This document shows, in pieces, positions 26,035-34,172 of a stretch of DNA of 34,172 nt. Made by a program: the position numbers and the translations under genes. Source of the DNA: Burkholderiaceae bacterium (GTDB lineage Bacteria > Pseudomonadota > Gammaproteobacteria > Burkholderiales > Burkholderiaceae). Each line of letters opens with the position of its first letter. The first letter of the stretch is position 1. Under the pieces are notes generated by a model. That model did no database searches, was not told where the DNA came from, and worked only from the letters and a program-made list of their open reading frames with translations. The stretch lies in the NCBI GenBank assembly GCA_947371415.1, contig CANBPJ010000003.1:1-34172 (forward strand), given 5' to 3'.

Positions 26035-26559
26035 CTACCAATAATGCATTGCCAATGCACCGATACAGCCCGAACTCAAAATCAGGTAAACGGGGTTTAG
26101 TTTTGTTTTTAAGATGAGATAAAACGTGATCAATGCGAGTGTCAAAGTAATAGGACTCACAATGGACGCTTTACCTACTGCATAGACGCCTGAGGCCATC
26201 AACCCAAGAGAAATGGGTTCCAAGGCATTCTGAACAGCTCTTCGCCAGGGACTTTCACCAAATCGATTCCACAGTCTGCCAACGTAAAAGCACAGAACAC
26301 TAGACGGCAAAAAGAATGACAGTAAAACAATCCCGGCGCCCATCAGACCAGCCAATTGGTAGCCAATCACCAATACCATCAGCATATTGGGCCCAGGAGC
26401 CAATTGACCAAAACTATAGATGTGGACAAATTGGGTATGGTCGATACCAAACTGATGAGCCAGTAGGGATTGCATCTCTGGTAGCACTGCAGTGCCGCCC
26501 CCTACTGCCAAAATAGAGAGCAATGCAAAACTGAGGGCAAGGTGGATTAAAAGACTCAT
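26035..26559 (-). CDS. Chromate transporter family, second half-protein
   Basis: GGGTAVLPEMQSLL and FGQLAPGPNMLMV motif; start trimmed to ATG at 26559, giving an ATGA overlap with the upstream gene. Confidence 0.88.
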   Translation of the reverse strand: MSLLIHLALSFALLSILAVGGGTAVLPEMQSLLAHQFGIDHTQFVHIYSFGQLAPGPNMLMVLVIGYQLAGLMGAGIVLLSFFLPSSVLCFYVGRLWNRFGESPWRRAVQNALEPISLGLMASGVYAVGKASIVSPITLTLALITFYLILKTKLNPVYLILSSGCIGALAMHYW

Positions 26560-27128
26560 GCGCTCTGACGTGGACGGTAAAGATAAATAGCTATCGGAGC
26601 CATGATTAGCAGAACTATAGGTAAAGATAGTTTTGCAATACTCATTAACAAGAAGGTGACCACAATAATCAACAGCGACTTTAGATGGCGCCAATTATCT
26701 TCACCGATTCGGTAGGTTATTGCTGCCAGTAGACCACTAGCCGCCGCTGCAATACCAATCAAAATCAGATTTACCAGAGGATGATTCGAGGCGCTGGCAT
26801 AAAGGATCCCCATACCCAATACAAATAGACTGCCCGGCAAAATTAAACCAATGCTTGCAATAAAGGCTCCCGGGGCACCGCGCAGATGATCTCCAGATAG
26901 GACGGCCATATTGACTGAATTGAGGCCAGGCATTGTTTGGCTAATCGCCAGATAGGCCATGAATTCATCCGGTGACAGCCACTTGCGTTTTTCTACCAAG
27001 AGGATGCGTTCATAGGCAATAATCCCGCCGCCAAAGCTGATGGCGCCAATCAGTAAAAACTGAATAAATAGATCGCCCAGTTTGGGGGGGTCAGCCTTGG
27101 AAATGGAAATATCAGCAGCTAGAGTCAC
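26556..27128 (-). CDS. Chromate transporter family, first half-protein
   Basis: FLLIGAISFGGGIIAYERILLVEKRKWLSPDEFMAYLAISQTMPGLNSVNMAVLSGDHLRGAPGAFIASIGLILPG. Confidence 0.9.
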   Translation of the reverse strand: MTLAADISISKADPPKLGDLFIQFLLIGAISFGGGIIAYERILLVEKRKWLSPDEFMAYLAISQTMPGLNSVNMAVLSGDHLRGAPGAFIASIGLILPGSLFVLGMGILYASASNHPLVNLILIGIAAAASGLLAAITYRIGEDNWRHLKSLLIIVVTFLLMSIAKLSLPIVLLIMAPIAIYLYRPRQSA

Positions 27129-27952
27129 TCTGGCTTTCCATAAATTAAAGCTGTTTTAGTGCTACCGATCTCCAGCCAGTCAGCCAGCTCAATTTGAAGC
27201 TTTTTAAAGAATTTATCGGCTCGCTTATGTGCTTTTGCTTGTGCGCGATTTTGATCATTCACTCGATAGGAAAATGCCAGCTCGCCCACAATTGGATCAC
27301 CAACACTTTTCATCCAAATTGCAATATCGCAATGCGCTTGCACTCCATCCCCAAACACCAAATTACCAATTGGTAGGCATGCCTCGAGAATTTTGTTGGT
27401 ACTCCCACCCACAATGCGCAGCGGCAGTTTTTTATCAATGGGTAGATGGACTAGGCCAGGGAAAAACTTGCCGACACTATTGAGGCTTCGATCAAATAGA
27501 TTATCCAAAGGCACGGCATCTAGAATGGCATTGTTTGAATAGATTGATCGCTTGGTTCCGAGGGTGTCGCCACGCAATATCTCCTCTTTTAAGCGCAACC
27601 TTGATTTAATCTTTTTATTGGGGCTTGGGTCAAATTGAGAAGACTCCGAAAGATCACTCGCACGGCATTTTAGGGTGACCTCACACCAATCATCTACCCA
27701 AACATTCTGGCGAGATTCACGAACGCGCAAGATGATGTTGTTACGACGAAAATCCTCTCCAGGCGTATCGTAAAAATAAATATTACGAAGGCCGGTAGTT
27801 GCATTATCTAAATGGAAAAAATCCACCTTACTCTTTTTGCAGAACTTGAGAATCTGATCGCTTAAAGCAGTAATTCTGCTGCGACGATCCAAGCCTTTTG
27901 GCTTGATGAGGAGCTTGAACTCTCGATTGGTAATAGACTCATGTAGCTTCAT
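27125..27952 (-). CDS. Uncharacterised protein, candidate divergent CYTH-like (triphosphate tunnel) domain
   Basis: NREFKLLIKPKG (degenerate ExExK), NIILRVRES, WCEVTLKCR, SRLRLKEEI, VGELAFSYRV: alternating charged beta-strand pattern as in CYTH proteins. CDS itself clear (275 aa, GTGA overlap with the next gene). Confidence 0.5.
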   Translation of the reverse strand: MKLHESITNREFKLLIKPKGLDRRSRITALSDQILKFCKKSKVDFFHLDNATTGLRNIYFYDTPGEDFRRNNIILRVRESRQNVWVDDWCEVTLKCRASDLSESSQFDPSPNKKIKSRLRLKEEILRGDTLGTKRSIYSNNAILDAVPLDNLFDRSLNSVGKFFPGLVHLPIDKKLPLRIVGGSTNKILEACLPIGNLVFGDGVQAHCDIAIWMKSVGDPIVGELAFSYRVNDQNRAQAKAHKRADKFFKKLQIELADWLEIGSTKTALIYGKPE

Positions 27953-28001: not shown

Positions 28002-28907
28002 TTAGTACACCTCAGGTACGTACATTTCAGGAGGCACTGGGCCTCGCAAGTAATCTGGATTATGTACGCGGGCAGGCAAGGTAATTTCTGGATGATCAAT
28101 TTCTTTATAGGGAATTTGATCTAGCAAATGAGAGATGCAATTGAGGCGCGCCTTTTTCTTATCATTGGCTGCCACTACCCACCATGGCGCCTCAGGAATG
28201 TTGGTGCGATCCAACATAGTCTCTTTTGCCTTGGTATAAGCCTCCCAGTGGCGACGAGCATCCAGATCCATTGGGCTTAATTTCCACTGCTTCAGCGGAT
28301 CATGGATTCGCATCATGAAGCGGTTGTATTGCTCGTCATCTGAAATCGAGAACCAATACTTAATCAAGATGATGCCAGATCGAATAATCATGCGCTCAAA
28401 TTCTGGGACCGTCCGCAAAAACTCTTCATACTCGGCATCAGTACAGAAACCCATGACTTTTTCTACGCCAGCACGGTTATACCAACTGCGGTCAAACAGC
28501 ACAATTTCACCACCAGCAGGTAAATTGGATATGTAGCGCTGAAAATACCACTGAGTCTTTTCCCGCTCACTTGGGGCTGTCAATGCTACGACTTTACAAA
28601 CACGGGGGTTAAGTCGCTGCGTAATCCGCTTGATTGCACCACCCTTACCCGCAGAATCGCGACCTTCGAATAAAACAGCAACTTTGAGCTTATTCTCTAC
28701 AACCCAGTCCTGAAGCTTAACTAACTCGCCCTGTAAGCGAAAAAGCTCCTTGAAATAGACTTGGCGCGGGATAACAGAACCGCTACCACCATCCGGGGAA
28801 AGGCGGTCATCATCAAGCTCCATTTCGAGCTCTTCGTCCATGCTATCTAAGATTTCTTCTTGAGCACGCTGATACCACTCAGCCATCTCTTTGTGTTTTG
28901 ACGTCAT
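28002..28907 (-). CDS. Polyphosphate kinase 2 family protein (second copy)
   Basis: VLFEGRDSAGKGGAIKRITQRLNPR, LFDRSWYNRAGVEKVMGFC, HDPLKQWKLSPMD; start trimmed to MTSKHKEMAEW (28907). Confidence 0.94.
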   Translation of the reverse strand: MTSKHKEMAEWYQRAQEEILDSMDEELEMELDDDRLSPDGGSGSVIPRQVYFKELFRLQGELVKLQDWVVENKLKVAVLFEGRDSAGKGGAIKRITQRLNPRVCKVVALTAPSEREKTQWYFQRYISNLPAGGEIVLFDRSWYNRAGVEKVMGFCTDAEYEEFLRTVPEFERMIIRSGIILIKYWFSISDDEQYNRFMMRIHDPLKQWKLSPMDLDARRHWEAYTKAKETMLDRTNIPEAPWWVVAANDKKKARLNCISHLLDQIPYKEIDHPEITLPARVHNPDYLRGPVPPEMYVPEVY

Positions 28908-29749
28908 TTCTTCCCCTGAGGCGTTACTAGCTTTGTATCCCAAGGATATGACACTTTTGTTACGGATGCCTTTTCAAGGCTTTTTGAGATCGATTCCTGG
29001 CTGTAATTTGCCAATTGCTTGCGATCCGCATTTGGCAAGAGGTCATCTGAATAAGCTGGAAAGAGCCTAATATGCGCCACCAAAGATCGATTTTTGATGA
29101 CCCTGGACATCGACTCCAATAAGCCCATATCTCCAATAAATGCTGGGGATTCGCTCCTCAAACCAGTGACTTTTGAGAGATATTGAAGGGCGAGCGGAAA
29201 AACTGGCACATTTGCGGCAATCGCGGATTCAAACAGATTGGGCTTAAACGGCAAGACAGAATCACCAATTGTTGAGGTTCCCTCGGGGAAAATACAGATA
29301 GATTCTGTTTTTAGCACTTCCGCCATCCGACCAACCACTTGCCTTGCCTGTCGGGCACTGTCCCTACGGATAAATACGGTGCCTAGTTGTTTGGCCATCC
29401 ACCCAAATATCGGCCAACCCTCTACTTCAGACTTCGCTACAAAACGAATTGGCTTAAATGCATTAATAACATGAATATCCAGCCACGATATATGGTTGGA
29501 GGCGATCAAATGCGGGGTATTACCCAGTAAAACAGCATCTTGAACGACAAGCTCAATATTGAATATTTTTAGAAGGCGTTTTGACCAAGCCTGAATTTTT
29601 CGATCTTTATTCCTGCGATTCAGAAATGGAAAAACAAAAGCTAGCGTACAAACACCGCAAATAACATGAACCCAGATTTGGCACCATACCCAGATACGCA
29701 GGAGCCTTGGCGTCTCTACTACATCGAGGTCGGAAGAAAGTATTTTCAT
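28904..29749 (-). CDS. 1-acyl-sn-glycerol-3-phosphate acyltransferase family (PlsC-like; OlsA candidate by context)
   Basis: NHISWLDIHVI (NHxxxxD), FIRRDSARQ, FPEGTSTIGDSVLPFK motifs; ATGA overlap with PPK2. Confidence 0.88.
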   Translation of the reverse strand: MKILSSDLDVVETPRLLRIWVWCQIWVHVICGVCTLAFVFPFLNRRNKDRKIQAWSKRLLKIFNIELVVQDAVLLGNTPHLIASNHISWLDIHVINAFKPIRFVAKSEVEGWPIFGWMAKQLGTVFIRRDSARQARQVVGRMAEVLKTESICIFPEGTSTIGDSVLPFKPNLFESAIAANVPVFPLALQYLSKVTGLRSESPAFIGDMGLLESMSRVIKNRSLVAHIRLFPAYSDDLLPNADRKQLANYSQESISKSLEKASVTKVSYPWDTKLVTPQGKK

Positions 29750-29770
29750 AAACAAGCATCAATATAAATC

Positions 29771-29799
29771 ATGTCATCAAAATGTCGTAAAACTGTCAT
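29771..29799 (+). promoter_or_regulatory. Pho box (PhoB-binding site), three 7-bp repeats at 11-bp period
   Basis: ATGTCAT-CAAA-ATGTCGT-AAAA-CTGTCAT in the 85-bp divergent intergenic region. Confidence 0.85.
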
Positions 29800-29834
29800 G
29801 AGGATTACATGATGGGCGGGCTTAATGCTTACTC

Positions 29835-30644
29835 ATGATGCATTACAGAGCTATTTGGATTTCAGATATACACCTAGGAACATCAGGGTGTCAGGCTAAC
29901 TACCTCCTCGATTTCTTAAAACACAATGAGGCGGATCAGTTTTATTTGGTTGGCGATATTATCGACGGCTGGCGCCTAAAACAATCTTTTTATTGGCCTC
30001 AAGCTCACAATGACGTAGTTCAAAAATTATTGCGTAAGGCACGAAAAGGTACCGAGGTTATTTATATCCCCGGCAATCATGACGAGGCAGCGCGGCAGTA
30101 TTTTGGCATGTCATTTGGCGACATTAAAGTTCAAGAAGAGGTGATCCACACAACCTTGGATGGCCGCAAGCTTTGGGTCACCCATGGCGATCTATTTGAC
30201 GGTGTCATGCAATACGCAAAATGGCTAGCTTACGTTGGTGATACGCTGTACTCCTTCATTCTTTACATCAACCGCTATTTCAATATGTTGCGGATCAAGA
30301 TGGGCCTGCAGTACTGGTCTCTCTCTCAATATCTCAAGCACCAAGTAAAAAATGCAGTGAGTTATATCGCAGACTTTGAGCACATCATGGCTAGAGAAGC
30401 GCGCTTGCGTAATTGTGATGGCGTGGTCTGCGGCCATATTCACAAAGCTGAAATCCGCGAGATTGATGGTCTGCTCTACTGCAATGATGGTGATTGGGTA
30501 GAAAGTCTTTCTGCACTAGTCGAGACAACCGAAGGCGAACTCAAAATTATTTACTGGACACATATCAAAGGTGATCCAGTTCAAGCTCCTGAAATTACTC
30601 TCCAACCCGCTGTTGAAGCACTTTTTAAAGAGGCTGCCTTATGA
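29835..30644 (+). CDS. plcP: Metallophosphoesterase, PlcP-like (phospholipase C-type, LpxH-related fold)
   Basis: ISDIHLGTSGCQANYLLDFLK, LVGDIIDGWRLKQSFYWPQAHNDVVQKLLRKARKGTEVIYIPGNHDE, THGDLFD, CGHIHKAEIREIDGLLYCNDGDWVES. Confidence 0.8.
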   Translation: MMHYRAIWISDIHLGTSGCQANYLLDFLKHNEADQFYLVGDIIDGWRLKQSFYWPQAHNDVVQKLLRKARKGTEVIYIPGNHDEAARQYFGMSFGDIKVQEEVIHTTLDGRKLWVTHGDLFDGVMQYAKWLAYVGDTLYSFILYINRYFNMLRIKMGLQYWSLSQYLKHQVKNAVSYIADFEHIMAREARLRNCDGVVCGHIHKAEIREIDGLLYCNDGDWVESLSALVETTEGELKIIYWTHIKGDPVQAPEITLQPAVEALFKEAAL

Positions 30645-31669
30645 AAATTATGATCATCACTGATGCATGGGATCCGCAAGTTAATGGCGTGGTGAGAACA
30701 CTAAAGCAAACGCGCGCCGAACTCATTGCCATGGGTCATGAGGTTGAAATGATTACGCCAAATGGCTTTAAATCTATTCCATGCCCGACTTATCCCGATA
30801 TTGCTCTCTCTTTATTTCCCGGAAAAGAAGTTGCCCGCAAAATCAAAGCATTCGCACCGGATGCGATGCATATCGCCACAGAGGGCCCTTTAGGCTTATC
30901 GGCGCGCGCTTATGCTGTAAAAAACAATCTACCCTTCTCTACCGCCTACCACACGCGCTTTCCTGAGTATGTCAAAGCACGTACCGGCATTCCACTTGCC
31001 ATTACTTATGCTTTCATCCGCTGGTTTCATGGGCAGTCTATGGCAGTCATGGCACCCACCATTGTCGTTAAGGATGATCTAGAAAAATATGGGCTTAATA
31101 ATGTGGTCTTGTGGTCTAGAGGTGTTGATCTCGATATCTTCAAAATACAAGAATCCAAAGCACTCAATACTGCACACCCAATCTTTTTGTATGTCGGTCG
31201 CGTTGCCGTGGAAAAGAATATCAATGCCTTTTTAGAAATTGATCTGCCAGGCTCAAAATGGGTGGTTGGCGATGGTCCAGCAATGGCTGGTATTAAAGAA
31301 AAATACCCTGACATTAACTATCTGGGTGTGCTGCAACAACATGAGCTGGCTAAGGTATATGCCGCAGCCGATGTGTTTGTATTTCCCAGCAAAACAGATA
31401 CGTTTGGACTGGTATTGCTGGAGGCTATGGCCTGCGGTACGCCAGTAGCAGCCTATCCAGTAACTGGCCCAATTGATGTTCTAGGCAACTCCCCAGCGGG
31501 AGCTATGAATGAGGATTTGCGGGAGGCTTGCCTGCAGGCTCTCAAGATTCCGCGTGAAGTTGCTAGAGCTCATGCCGAGAAATTCTCTTGGAGAGCTGCT
31601 TCCGAGCAATTTGCAAATCACCTTAAGCCAGTGCCATCAACAGAAGTTCATGTTAGCGCTCTCGCATAA
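30641..31669 (+). CDS. GT4-family glycosyltransferase (Agt-like, diacylglycerol glycosyltransferase candidate)
   Basis: ITDAWDPQVNGVVRTLKQTRAELIAMGHEVEMITPNGF, YVGRVAVEKNI, DVFVFPSKTDTFGLVLLEAMACGTPVAAYPV; 4-bp ATGA overlap with plcP-like gene. Confidence 0.85.
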   Translation: MKIMIITDAWDPQVNGVVRTLKQTRAELIAMGHEVEMITPNGFKSIPCPTYPDIALSLFPGKEVARKIKAFAPDAMHIATEGPLGLSARAYAVKNNLPFSTAYHTRFPEYVKARTGIPLAITYAFIRWFHGQSMAVMAPTIVVKDDLEKYGLNNVVLWSRGVDLDIFKIQESKALNTAHPIFLYVGRVAVEKNINAFLEIDLPGSKWVVGDGPAMAGIKEKYPDINYLGVLQQHELAKVYAAADVFVFPSKTDTFGLVLLEAMACGTPVAAYPVTGPIDVLGNSPAGAMNEDLREACLQALKIPREVARAHAEKFSWRAASEQFANHLKPVPSTEVHVSALA

Positions 31670-31678
31670 GGCAGCATT

Positions 31679-32083
31679 TTGACCACCCCCTACAACATCA
31701 ATCAGAATCCCCACAAAGGCAATCGTGGTCTCACCAGAGCTTGGCATGCCGCCAAGAACTCTTGGTGTGGCATTGTTTACGCATTCAAAGAAGAAAGTGC
31801 TTTTAGGCAAGAGCTCACACTACTGATATTACTCACCCCTCTTGCACTTTTTCTGCCGATCAGCCCACTCGAAAAGTGCGCTCTGATTGCCTCATTAATC
31901 ATGGTGTTAGTTGTGGAGTTACTTAACTCAAGTGTTGAGGCAGCCATCGACCGAATCTCATTTGATCATCACGATCTATCAAAGAGGGCAAAAGACTTCG
32001 GATCGGCTGCAGTAATGTTAGCCCTGATGATTGCCGCATTGCTTTGGATCGCGATTTGCGCTCCCCTTGTCATGTCTTCGTAA
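31679..32083 (+). CDS. dgkA: Diacylglycerol kinase
   Basis: RAWHAAKNSWCGIVYAFKEESAFRQEL...VVELLNSSVEAAIDRISFDHHDLSKRAKDFGSAAVML; TTG start. Confidence 0.93.
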   Translation: MTTPYNINQNPHKGNRGLTRAWHAAKNSWCGIVYAFKEESAFRQELTLLILLTPLALFLPISPLEKCALIASLIMVLVVELLNSSVEAAIDRISFDHHDLSKRAKDFGSAAVMLALMIAALLWIAICAPLVMSS

Positions 32084-32126: not shown

Positions 32127-33065
32127 ATGTCGGATATTCCAAACCCACTAGGCGCTTTTGATATCTTCAACTCACGATTTGAAGCCAAGCCAAAAAAGGC
32201 AAAAAAGAGTAAAGCTGAAACTATTAAGAAACTTTTTTCTAAGAAAATAGCCAAGAAATTATTTGGGAAAAAGTTTGCCACTCAAGCGCGTACAGAGCTG
32301 GAGATCCAGGAACTAGTAGTGCCTGAAAAGGCAATTGCCAAGCCAAAACGCCCTGCGTTTCAAATTACTTGGGCCAGCAATGCCAGCGAGATTAAAGAAG
32401 CTCAGCGCCTACGTTACAAAGTTTTTGCAGAAGAGATGGGTGCAAACCTTCCTGCTAATCCTGAAAACCTCGATATTGATGAGTTTGATGCCTATTGCGA
32501 TCACCTGTTGATTCGCGACCAAGAATCCCTCAAGGTAGTCGGCACCTATCGCGTACTACCCCCACATAAAGCCTTAGAAATTGGCCGCCTGTATTCTGAT
32601 TCTGAGTTTGACTTGTCACGCTTAAATCATTTGCGCCCAAAGATGGTGGAGCTCGGTAGATCTTGCGTACATGCAGACTACCGCTCTGGCGCCGTCATCA
32701 TGGCACTATGGAGCGGTCTTGCCCAATACATGCAAAAACACGATTATGAAATCATGCTGGGTTGTGCAAGCATCCCAATGGCAGATGGCGGTCACTATGC
32801 GGCCAGCCTCTTTAACTCCCTCAGAAATGAACAAATGGCGCCGGTAGAGAACCATGCATTTCCTCGTCTGCCACTCCCACTGGATCGTCTTAACGGTGGT
32901 TTAGAGGTCGACCCACCGCCGCTGATTAAGGGTTACTTGAAGTTAGGCGCCAAGATTTGTAGTGCCCCAGCATGGGATCCCGATTTCAACACTGCTGACG
33001 TTTTAACAATGCTGCGTCTCTCAGAAATAAATCCGCGTTATGCCAAGCATTTTTTAGGTCTGTAG
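32127..33065 (+). CDS. GNAT-superfamily acyltransferase, OlsB-like (L-ornithine N-acyltransferase candidate) with Lys-rich N-terminal extension
   Basis: EAQRLRYKVFAEEMGA, DEFDAYCDHLLIRD, VVGTYRVLPPHKA, KMVELGRSCVHADYRSGAVIMALWSGLAQYM, FPRLPLPLDRL...PPPLIKGYLKLGAKICSAPAWDPDFNTADVLTMLRL. Confidence 0.82.
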   Translation: MSDIPNPLGAFDIFNSRFEAKPKKAKKSKAETIKKLFSKKIAKKLFGKKFATQARTELEIQELVVPEKAIAKPKRPAFQITWASNASEIKEAQRLRYKVFAEEMGANLPANPENLDIDEFDAYCDHLLIRDQESLKVVGTYRVLPPHKALEIGRLYSDSEFDLSRLNHLRPKMVELGRSCVHADYRSGAVIMALWSGLAQYMQKHDYEIMLGCASIPMADGGHYAASLFNSLRNEQMAPVENHAFPRLPLPLDRLNGGLEVDPPPLIKGYLKLGAKICSAPAWDPDFNTADVLTMLRLSEINPRYAKHFLGL

Positions 33066-33098: not shown

Positions 33099-34172
33099 TT
33101 ACTTCAAACTCACTTTATAAGGCCGGCCGATACGTTCCCATTCGGCCGCTTCTTTTTGCAAGCTAAACTCTGTCAAAGGATGCTCTCTTGCCCAGTCTTT
33201 TGAAAGGCTGACTAGATAAGACCCATCATGCTCCGATACTTTAACCTTTGGTAGGTTGGCATCACTTCTACCGCGGCATAGGGCCTGAGCCAAACGCAAG
33301 CAAAACAACATACGCCAATCCTTAAAGCTCGGATTATTGGCTAGCTTGCCAAGTTTTCCAGTATGGCCAATTAATAATGCGGCTAGTCTTGCTTGATCAT
33401 TTTTTGAGAATCCAGGCATATCTGCATTGCCGGCAATATAAGCAGAGTGCTTGTGATAACCATTATGAGAAATCGACAAGCCAATCTCATGCAAATTGGC
33501 TGCCCACTGAAGCAATGCAATGTTGTCTGATCTACTTTCTACATCAGGCTTAGGCAGTTGCGCTAAAAATTCAGCAGCATGCTGGCCCACCCGCTTTGCT
33601 TGCTCTCGATCCACTGCATAACGTTGCATGAATTGCTCAACGGTCACAAAGCGCATATCGTCATGCTGAGAACGCCCCAAAAGGTCATATAGAACACCGA
33701 CACGCAATGCAGCATCAGTCACCTCCATACTCTCGATACCCAACTCATCAAAGACGGCAATCATGATGGCAAGGCCACCTGGCCAAACAGATCTACGGTC
33801 GTCTTTTAGGCCAAGCAACTCCACCTGGCTGACATTCTCGTATTTCAAAAGATGTTTTTTCATGGCCTTTAAGCCATCGCGCGTAATCAACCCACTAGAA
33901 CTATTGACGCGACCCATAGTCAGACCTTCATTCAGCTGACCGTTGAAGTTATTCTCCGAAATGAGGTCTGCTAAGGCACGTGCCGTGCCAGAAGATCCGA
34001 CCACCTGCCTCCAACCGCTCTTTAAATAAGCGCCTGAAATAACTTGGATCTCGCGACGTGCTGCTAACTCAGCCTCTTTAAAAGCATGGGCATCAATATT
34101 GCCCTTGGGGAAAAAACGAAGGCTATGAGAAACACAACCAATATAGAGGCTTTCCATCAGCTTGGGCTCATA
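33099..34172 (-). CDS. ppx: Exopolyphosphatase, Ppx/GppA family (5' end outside window)
   Basis: LMESLYIGCVSHSLRFFPKGNID...VGSSGTARAL...GLITRDGLKAMKKHLL...WPGGLAIMIAVFDELGIESMEVTDAALRVGVLYDLLGR; frame is open to the window edge (YEPKL upstream of the listed M). Confidence 0.93.
   Translation of the reverse strand, partial: YEPKLMESLYIGCVSHSLRFFPKGNIDAHAFKEAELAARREIQVISGAYLKSGWRQVVGSSGTARALADLISENNFNGQLNEGLTMGRVNSSSGLITRDGLKAMKKHLLKYENVSQVELLGLKDDRRSVWPGGLAIMIAVFDELGIESMEVTDAALRVGVLYDLLGRSQHDDMRFVTVEQFMQRYAVDREQAKRVGQHAAEFLAQLPKPDVESRSDNIALLQWAANLHEIGLSISHNGYHKHSAYIAGNADMPGFSKNDQARLAALLIGHTGKLGKLANNPSFKDWRMLFCLRLAQALCRGRSDANLPKVKVSEHDGSYLVSLSKDWAREHPLTEFSLQKEAAEWERIGRPYKVSLK

Follow-up and report, generated by a model that had tools for sequence, protein, structure and literature searches.

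Pho boxes have been described before plcP clusters in marine bacteria (PMC4796936) and before plcP-agt1 in Pseudomonas aeruginosa (PMC8528852), and work in other bacteria has established PlcP as the source of the diacylglycerol used by Agt (PMC8528852). The locus described here resembles these clusters in having plcP, a downstream glycosyltransferase and an upstream Pho box, but it differs in that dgkA and olsB follow codirectionally and olsA-ppk2 is divergent, and also in that a four-unit array can be resolved and a leaderless start is predicted. Its promoter also resembles the Pho promoters of E. coli, which have 7-bp units with 4-bp spacers, lack a usable −35 and, in phoA, have 10 nt from the last unit to the −10. 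More than one Pho box can occur in a promoter (PMC4415409); in E. coli, phoA has a single box, while ugp has several. Unlike phoA, which keeps its leader, the plcP promoter would drive a lipid-remodelling operon from a −10 that lies 8 nt from the start codon. In this last respect it resembles the leaderless genes documented in Burkholderia cenocepacia, in which a promoter motif immediately before the start codon replaces the Shine-Dalgarno sequence (PMC4603805). We found nothing relevant in the literature linking leaderless mRNAs and Pho boxes, and Polynucleobacter is not mentioned in any of the papers listed when the genus was searched together with lipids and phosphorus limitation.

The window, that is, the whole stretch of 34,172 nucleotides that was analysed, is contig C3 of a 1.6 Mb genome that is 79% complete and whose closest relatives are Polynucleobacter; its plcP is at most 97 to 98% identical to those of Polynucleobacter aenigmaticus and a Burkholderiaceae MAG. 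We consider it very likely, from the sequence and its comparison, that positions 29771-29826 are a PhoB-activated sigma-70 promoter of a near-leaderless phospholipid-replacement operon, plcP-agt-dgkA-olsB, and that olsA-ppk2 has a promoter of its own. The genes concerned are the following:

29835-30644, plus strand: plcP, calcineurin-type phosphoesterase (phospholipase C-like, COG2908-like), from family matches and context
30641-31669, plus strand: agt, GT4 glycosyltransferase, with a 4-nt overlap with the end of plcP
31679-32083, plus strand: dgkA, prokaryotic diacylglycerol kinase (PF01219, E 2e-33)
32127-33065, plus strand: olsB, ornithine N-alpha-acyltransferase homologue (NF052554, E 9e-53, under the curated cut-off)
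28904-29749, minus strand: olsA, lyso-ornithine lipid O-acyltransferase homologue, divergent, with its ATG at 29749 (NF052553, E 2e-36, under the curated cut-off)
28002-28907, minus strand: ppk2, polyphosphate kinase 2, whose start overlaps the olsA stop (TIGR03707, above the cut-off)

The name PlcP would follow from the family, the context and the absence of an LpxH-level score: the gene encodes a metallophosphoesterase distinct from LpxH and adjoins a GT4 glycosyltransferase. LpxH itself was considered and rejected, given a score far under the LpxH cut-offs and a real LpxH on another contig. OlsB and OlsA are best regarded as homologues only, with 179.6 of the 350 bits and 125.4 of the 300 bits demanded by the curated cut-offs, although their best-matching families are ornithine lipid enzymes; a second PlsC-like protein, besides the olsA product, is encoded elsewhere in the genome. 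We thus infer the enzyme roles in this organism from family and context, and the four genes are presumed to be cotranscribed.

The order of the genes at the plcP locus is kept across Polynucleobacter, where olsA diverges much faster among species (44-78% identity) than plcP, agt and ppk2 (about 80-98%). Several features of the surroundings may also be recorded. Adjoining ppk2, a 275-aa protein (27125-27952, minus strand) has no Pfam or NCBIfam match and looks by eye CYTH/triphosphate-tunnel-like (EFKLLIK, LRVRE), which would fit polyphosphate metabolism. Further along (26035-27128, minus strand) are two neighbouring half-size ORFs; the upstream one encodes a chromate-transporter domain (PF02417), and the pair may be a transporter divided between two genes. 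A Ppx/GppA-type exopolyphosphatase (33099-34172, minus strand), convergent to olsB and truncated where the window stops, lies on the other side, so that polyphosphate genes occur on both flanks of the lipid locus. In some relatives, a strong Pho-like array of three units, ATGTCAT AAAA CTGACTT ATAA GTGTCAT, precedes a Lys/Ala-rich histone-H1-like gene and a second PPK2 that are convergent to ppk2 (for instance, in locus L152 of genome G116, positions 1440-1475 and 1558-2600); this arrangement is absent at the corresponding place in the window.

The elements between plcP and olsA, with their conservation among 88 distinct related plcP promoters aligned ungapped on the plcP ATG, are as follows:

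29771-29777, plus strand: R1, distal half of the upstream Pho box, ATGTCAT (GTCA at 29773-29776 in 86-88 of 88)
29782-29788, plus strand: R2, proximal half of the upstream Pho box, ATGTCGT (TG in 88 of 88, C in 87 of 88)
29793-29799, plus strand: R3, distal half of the promoter-proximal Pho box, CTGTCAT (GTCA in 87-88 of 88)
29804-29810, plus strand: R4, proximal half of the promoter-proximal Pho box, ATTACAT, in the 11-bp register (T29806, C29808 and A29809 in 88 of 88)
29821-29826, plus strand: −10 element CTTAAT (within GGCTTAAT) of the plcP promoter (AAT in 88 of 88, fixed 8 nt before the ATG)
29832-29835, plus strand: transcription start as predicted from the −10, at the plcP ATG or up to 3 nt ahead of it
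29761-29766, minus strand: TATATT, likely −10 of olsA, whose ATG follows after 11 nt, from sequence and comparison across promoters

The initial annotation had described a triple-repeat Pho box at 29771-29799, about 36 bp upstream of the plcP ATG. Read directly, the sequence contains the three repeats exactly as claimed, at an 11-bp pitch on the plus strand, with spacers CAAA between R1 and R2 and AAAA between R2 and R3, and the ATG at 29835 is separated from R3 by 35 nt. Direct repeats of this kind, two or more CTGTCAT-like 7-bp units at an 11-bp pitch, characterise Pho boxes. The pattern TGTCAT-N5-TGTCAT-N5-TGTCAT, with up to three mismatches, has a single match in the window, the array itself (one mismatch), where 0.07 would be expected, and the three-unit score of 27.9 compares with a maximum of 25.1 in 40 shuffled windows. 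Two units alone are unremarkable in 34 kb (18.0 versus 18.6 in the shuffles), so it is the register of three that matters, and an in-register triplet is more than chance would produce. The 1.6 Mb genome has no copy of the two-unit core TGTCRT-N5-TGTCRT outside the array.

The array is real and conserved, and its reading as a PhoB-type box is well supported, but the count of three missed R4, and there are four units, making two full boxes. Across the 88 Polynucleobacter promoters, the stretch from R1 to the ATG shows no change in length and carries four conserved units (nnGTCAY, nTGnCnT, nTGTCAT and nTTWCAY) at the 11-bp pitch; R4 is followed by exactly 10 nt, CTTAAT, exactly 8 nt and the plcP ATG. 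R2 and R4 are degenerate in the window itself, and the R2 position mostly reads TGACTT in relatives. Since the 10 nt between R4 and the −10 are mostly variable, as is the flank upstream of R1, the conservation does not merely reflect close relatedness; inside one genus, it is partly shared descent.

The phoA promoter of E. coli MG1655 has the same geometry (CTGTCAT, AAAG, TTGTCAC, 10 nt, TATAGT), as do the pstS promoters of this genome and nine congeners, where two units with a 4-bp spacer are followed after 10 nt by TATCGT or a similar hexamer. Counted from R3, the 10-nt spacing would put the −10 at TGATGG, which is no promoter element. Thus, the rule fits the plcP promoter only with R4 as the last unit, which implies that R3-R4 would be the box working with RNA polymerase and that R1-R2 is a second, upstream Pho box; judged by its spacing, the array is two adjacent 22-bp Pho boxes. 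CTTAAT matches TATAAT at four of six positions, and no acceptable −35 for plcP was found upstream of it; the proximal unit, 10 nt from the −10, would stand in its place. A missing −35 is expected of PhoB promoters. Structural models indicate that strict spacing is needed for PhoB activation (PMC10294691), and many of the sites that PhoB occupies in E. coli, chiefly intragenic ones, have no effect on transcription (PMC10294691).

Under the proposed mechanism, phosphate starvation would lead PhoR to phosphorylate PhoB, two dimers of which would bind head-to-tail on R1-R2 and R3-R4. The R3-R4 dimer would replace the missing −35 and recruit RNA polymerase to CTTAAT 10 nt on, and transcription would begin within a few nucleotides of the plcP ATG, yielding a leaderless or near-leaderless mRNA. 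PlcP would then strip phosphate head groups from phospholipids, the diacylglycerol would be glycosylated by Agt or recycled by DgkA, and OlsB would make ornithine lipid, while the divergent olsA-ppk2 pair would run from its own promoter.

The regulator that this mechanism calls for is encoded in the genome. The initial annotation had made its proposal depend on a phoB homologue, and there is a PhoB/PhoR pair: PhoB is above its family cut-off, its C-terminal DNA-binding domain matches the PhoB-DNA crystal chain 1gxp, PhoR, PhoU and PstB are encoded beside it, and PstS is on the same contig. The orientation of the array toward plcP-agt-dgkA-olsB, its deep conservation and the phoB, phoR, phoU and pst genes support the proposal of a Pho box for this operon. 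It is extremely improbable that another OmpR/PhoB-family regulator binds the array and that the operon answers a non-phosphate signal. The genome has other response regulators, which match the PhoB model more weakly, and PhoP of Mycobacterium is likewise described as reading 7-bp repeats with 4-bp spacers (PMC4832192); nevertheless, only one protein is above the PhoB cut-off, the pooled unit consensus is the PhoB CTGTCAT, and units and spacing of the plcP type also occur before pstS.

The Polynucleobacter pstS promoter shares with that of plcP its units and its 10-nt spacing to the −10, and the same regulator would be expected to control both. It differs in having one box instead of two and in retaining a leader of about 40 nt, with a Shine-Dalgarno sequence in most of the ten loci. 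In most Polynucleobacter pstS loci (L185-L194), the leader predicted to be transcribed also carries, past the −10, a second conserved element, TATCGCNNNNNTGCG. In the window's own genome, a sequence model of the plcP promoter matches that promoter only, with a few partial matches in relatives; the model is too specific to plcP for listing the Pho regulon.

Beyond the genus, we compared 35 distinct Burkholderiaceae plcP loci with 120 shuffles of ten loci. The array and the −10 are recognisable in 30 of the 35, with scores of 30-39 against a shuffle maximum of 28.1; the other five are not above the shuffles, and three of these retain the two proximal units. The two distal units are degenerate in many outgroups, and the −10 is mostly CNNAAT. 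This conservation indicates that the array is old and belongs to plcP. In these outgroups, some 200-280 nt lie between it and the conserved plcP start, owing to an N-terminal protein extension plus a leader, the leader being commonly about 27 nt, with AGGAGG or similar in distant genera. The short plcP start of Polynucleobacter and the loss of the leader are thus probably derived.

In the window, 8 nt separate the end of the −10 hexamer from the plcP ATG, and no Shine-Dalgarno sequence was found before plcP, the arrangement of a −10 directly before an ATG that marks leaderless mRNAs. With a start about 7 nt past the −10, the plcP leader would be 0-3 nt, and the mRNA is probably leaderless or near-leaderless. 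A plcP start upstream of the −10 was rejected, as TAA at 29823-29825, within CTTAAT, is an in-frame stop. We think it quite unlikely that plcP is instead transcribed with a normal leader from a more distant upstream promoter and that GGCTTAAT has another function, such as one in translation. In favour of such a reading, CTTAAT makes a weak −10 and the leaderless start is a prediction, but CTTAAT holds the Pho spacing and its fixed position in 88 promoters. Moreover, the outgroups keep the array plus CNNAAT despite their different leader and start, which argues that the element belongs to the array and not to the start codon.

On the other side of the array, the minus-strand TATATT at 29761-29766 is present as first reported. 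It occurs in 66 of the 88 promoters and is missing from 22, and nearly always lies 8-11 nt before an in-frame olsA ATG, so that olsA may be near-leaderless too. Its distance from R1 is 4 bp in the window and in 35 of the 66 promoters, and 16-25 bp in 30. As the gap to R1 varies while the distance to the olsA ATG is steady, TATATT follows olsA and not the array. A −35 candidate for olsA within R2, ACGACA with a 16-nt spacer, was discarded, since it relies on the window's spelling of R2, which most relatives do not share.

The suggestion that one box could serve both directions is therefore not supported, the olsA −10 being unlocked from the array and no reverse-oriented box being found: read on the opposite strand, the array scores 22.2 over three units, within the shuffles. 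That PhoB on the array activates plcP and also olsA-ppk2 appears unlikely to us. OlsA and OlsB belong to one pathway, every Polynucleobacter locus of sufficient length has olsA divergent from plcP, and the 4-bp gap recurs in about half of the promoters having TATATT; however, a bidirectional operator would show conserved geometry to the promoters on both sides, and PhoB activation demands strict spacing (PMC10294691), whereas here that gap varies, 22 promoters lack TATATT, and the outgroups have the array without an adjacent olsA match.

Somewhat less doubtful, although still only a tentative possibility, is a dual role in which PhoB activates plcP but lowers olsA-ppk2 transcription, because it masks the −35 region and spacer of the promoter on that side. 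In the window, R1-R2 extend over the DNA immediately preceding the olsA −10, where bound PhoB would more likely hinder than help olsA, and E. coli phoB is repressed through a PhoB site close to the −10 (PMC6194859). Against this, the genus as a whole does not conserve the overlap, and low Pi should call for OlsA as well as OlsB. A broader scenario seems comparably doubtful: the Polynucleobacter plcP would have lost its ancestral leader and N-terminal extension, leaving the operon leaderless and olsA near-leaderless, with PhoB activating plcP and competing with RNA polymerase at olsA where the sites overlap. We infer PhoB binding, the Pi response and the start site from the arrangement described above, and continue to favour activation of plcP from the array, with olsA-ppk2 under its own promoter.

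The plcP promoter is of an ordinary kind, clearly resolved, and its leaderless twist is possibly new. What this analysis adds is the corrected anatomy, the age of the array in Burkholderiaceae, the placement of dgkA and olsB in the operon with olsA divergent, and the leaderless prediction. The rule of last unit, 10 nt and −10 could be used for finding further Pho genes in Burkholderiaceae. For Polynucleobacter, an abundant freshwater genus, the predicted replacement of phospholipid by glycolipid and ornithine lipid would lie, genus-wide, behind one phosphate-controlled promoter.
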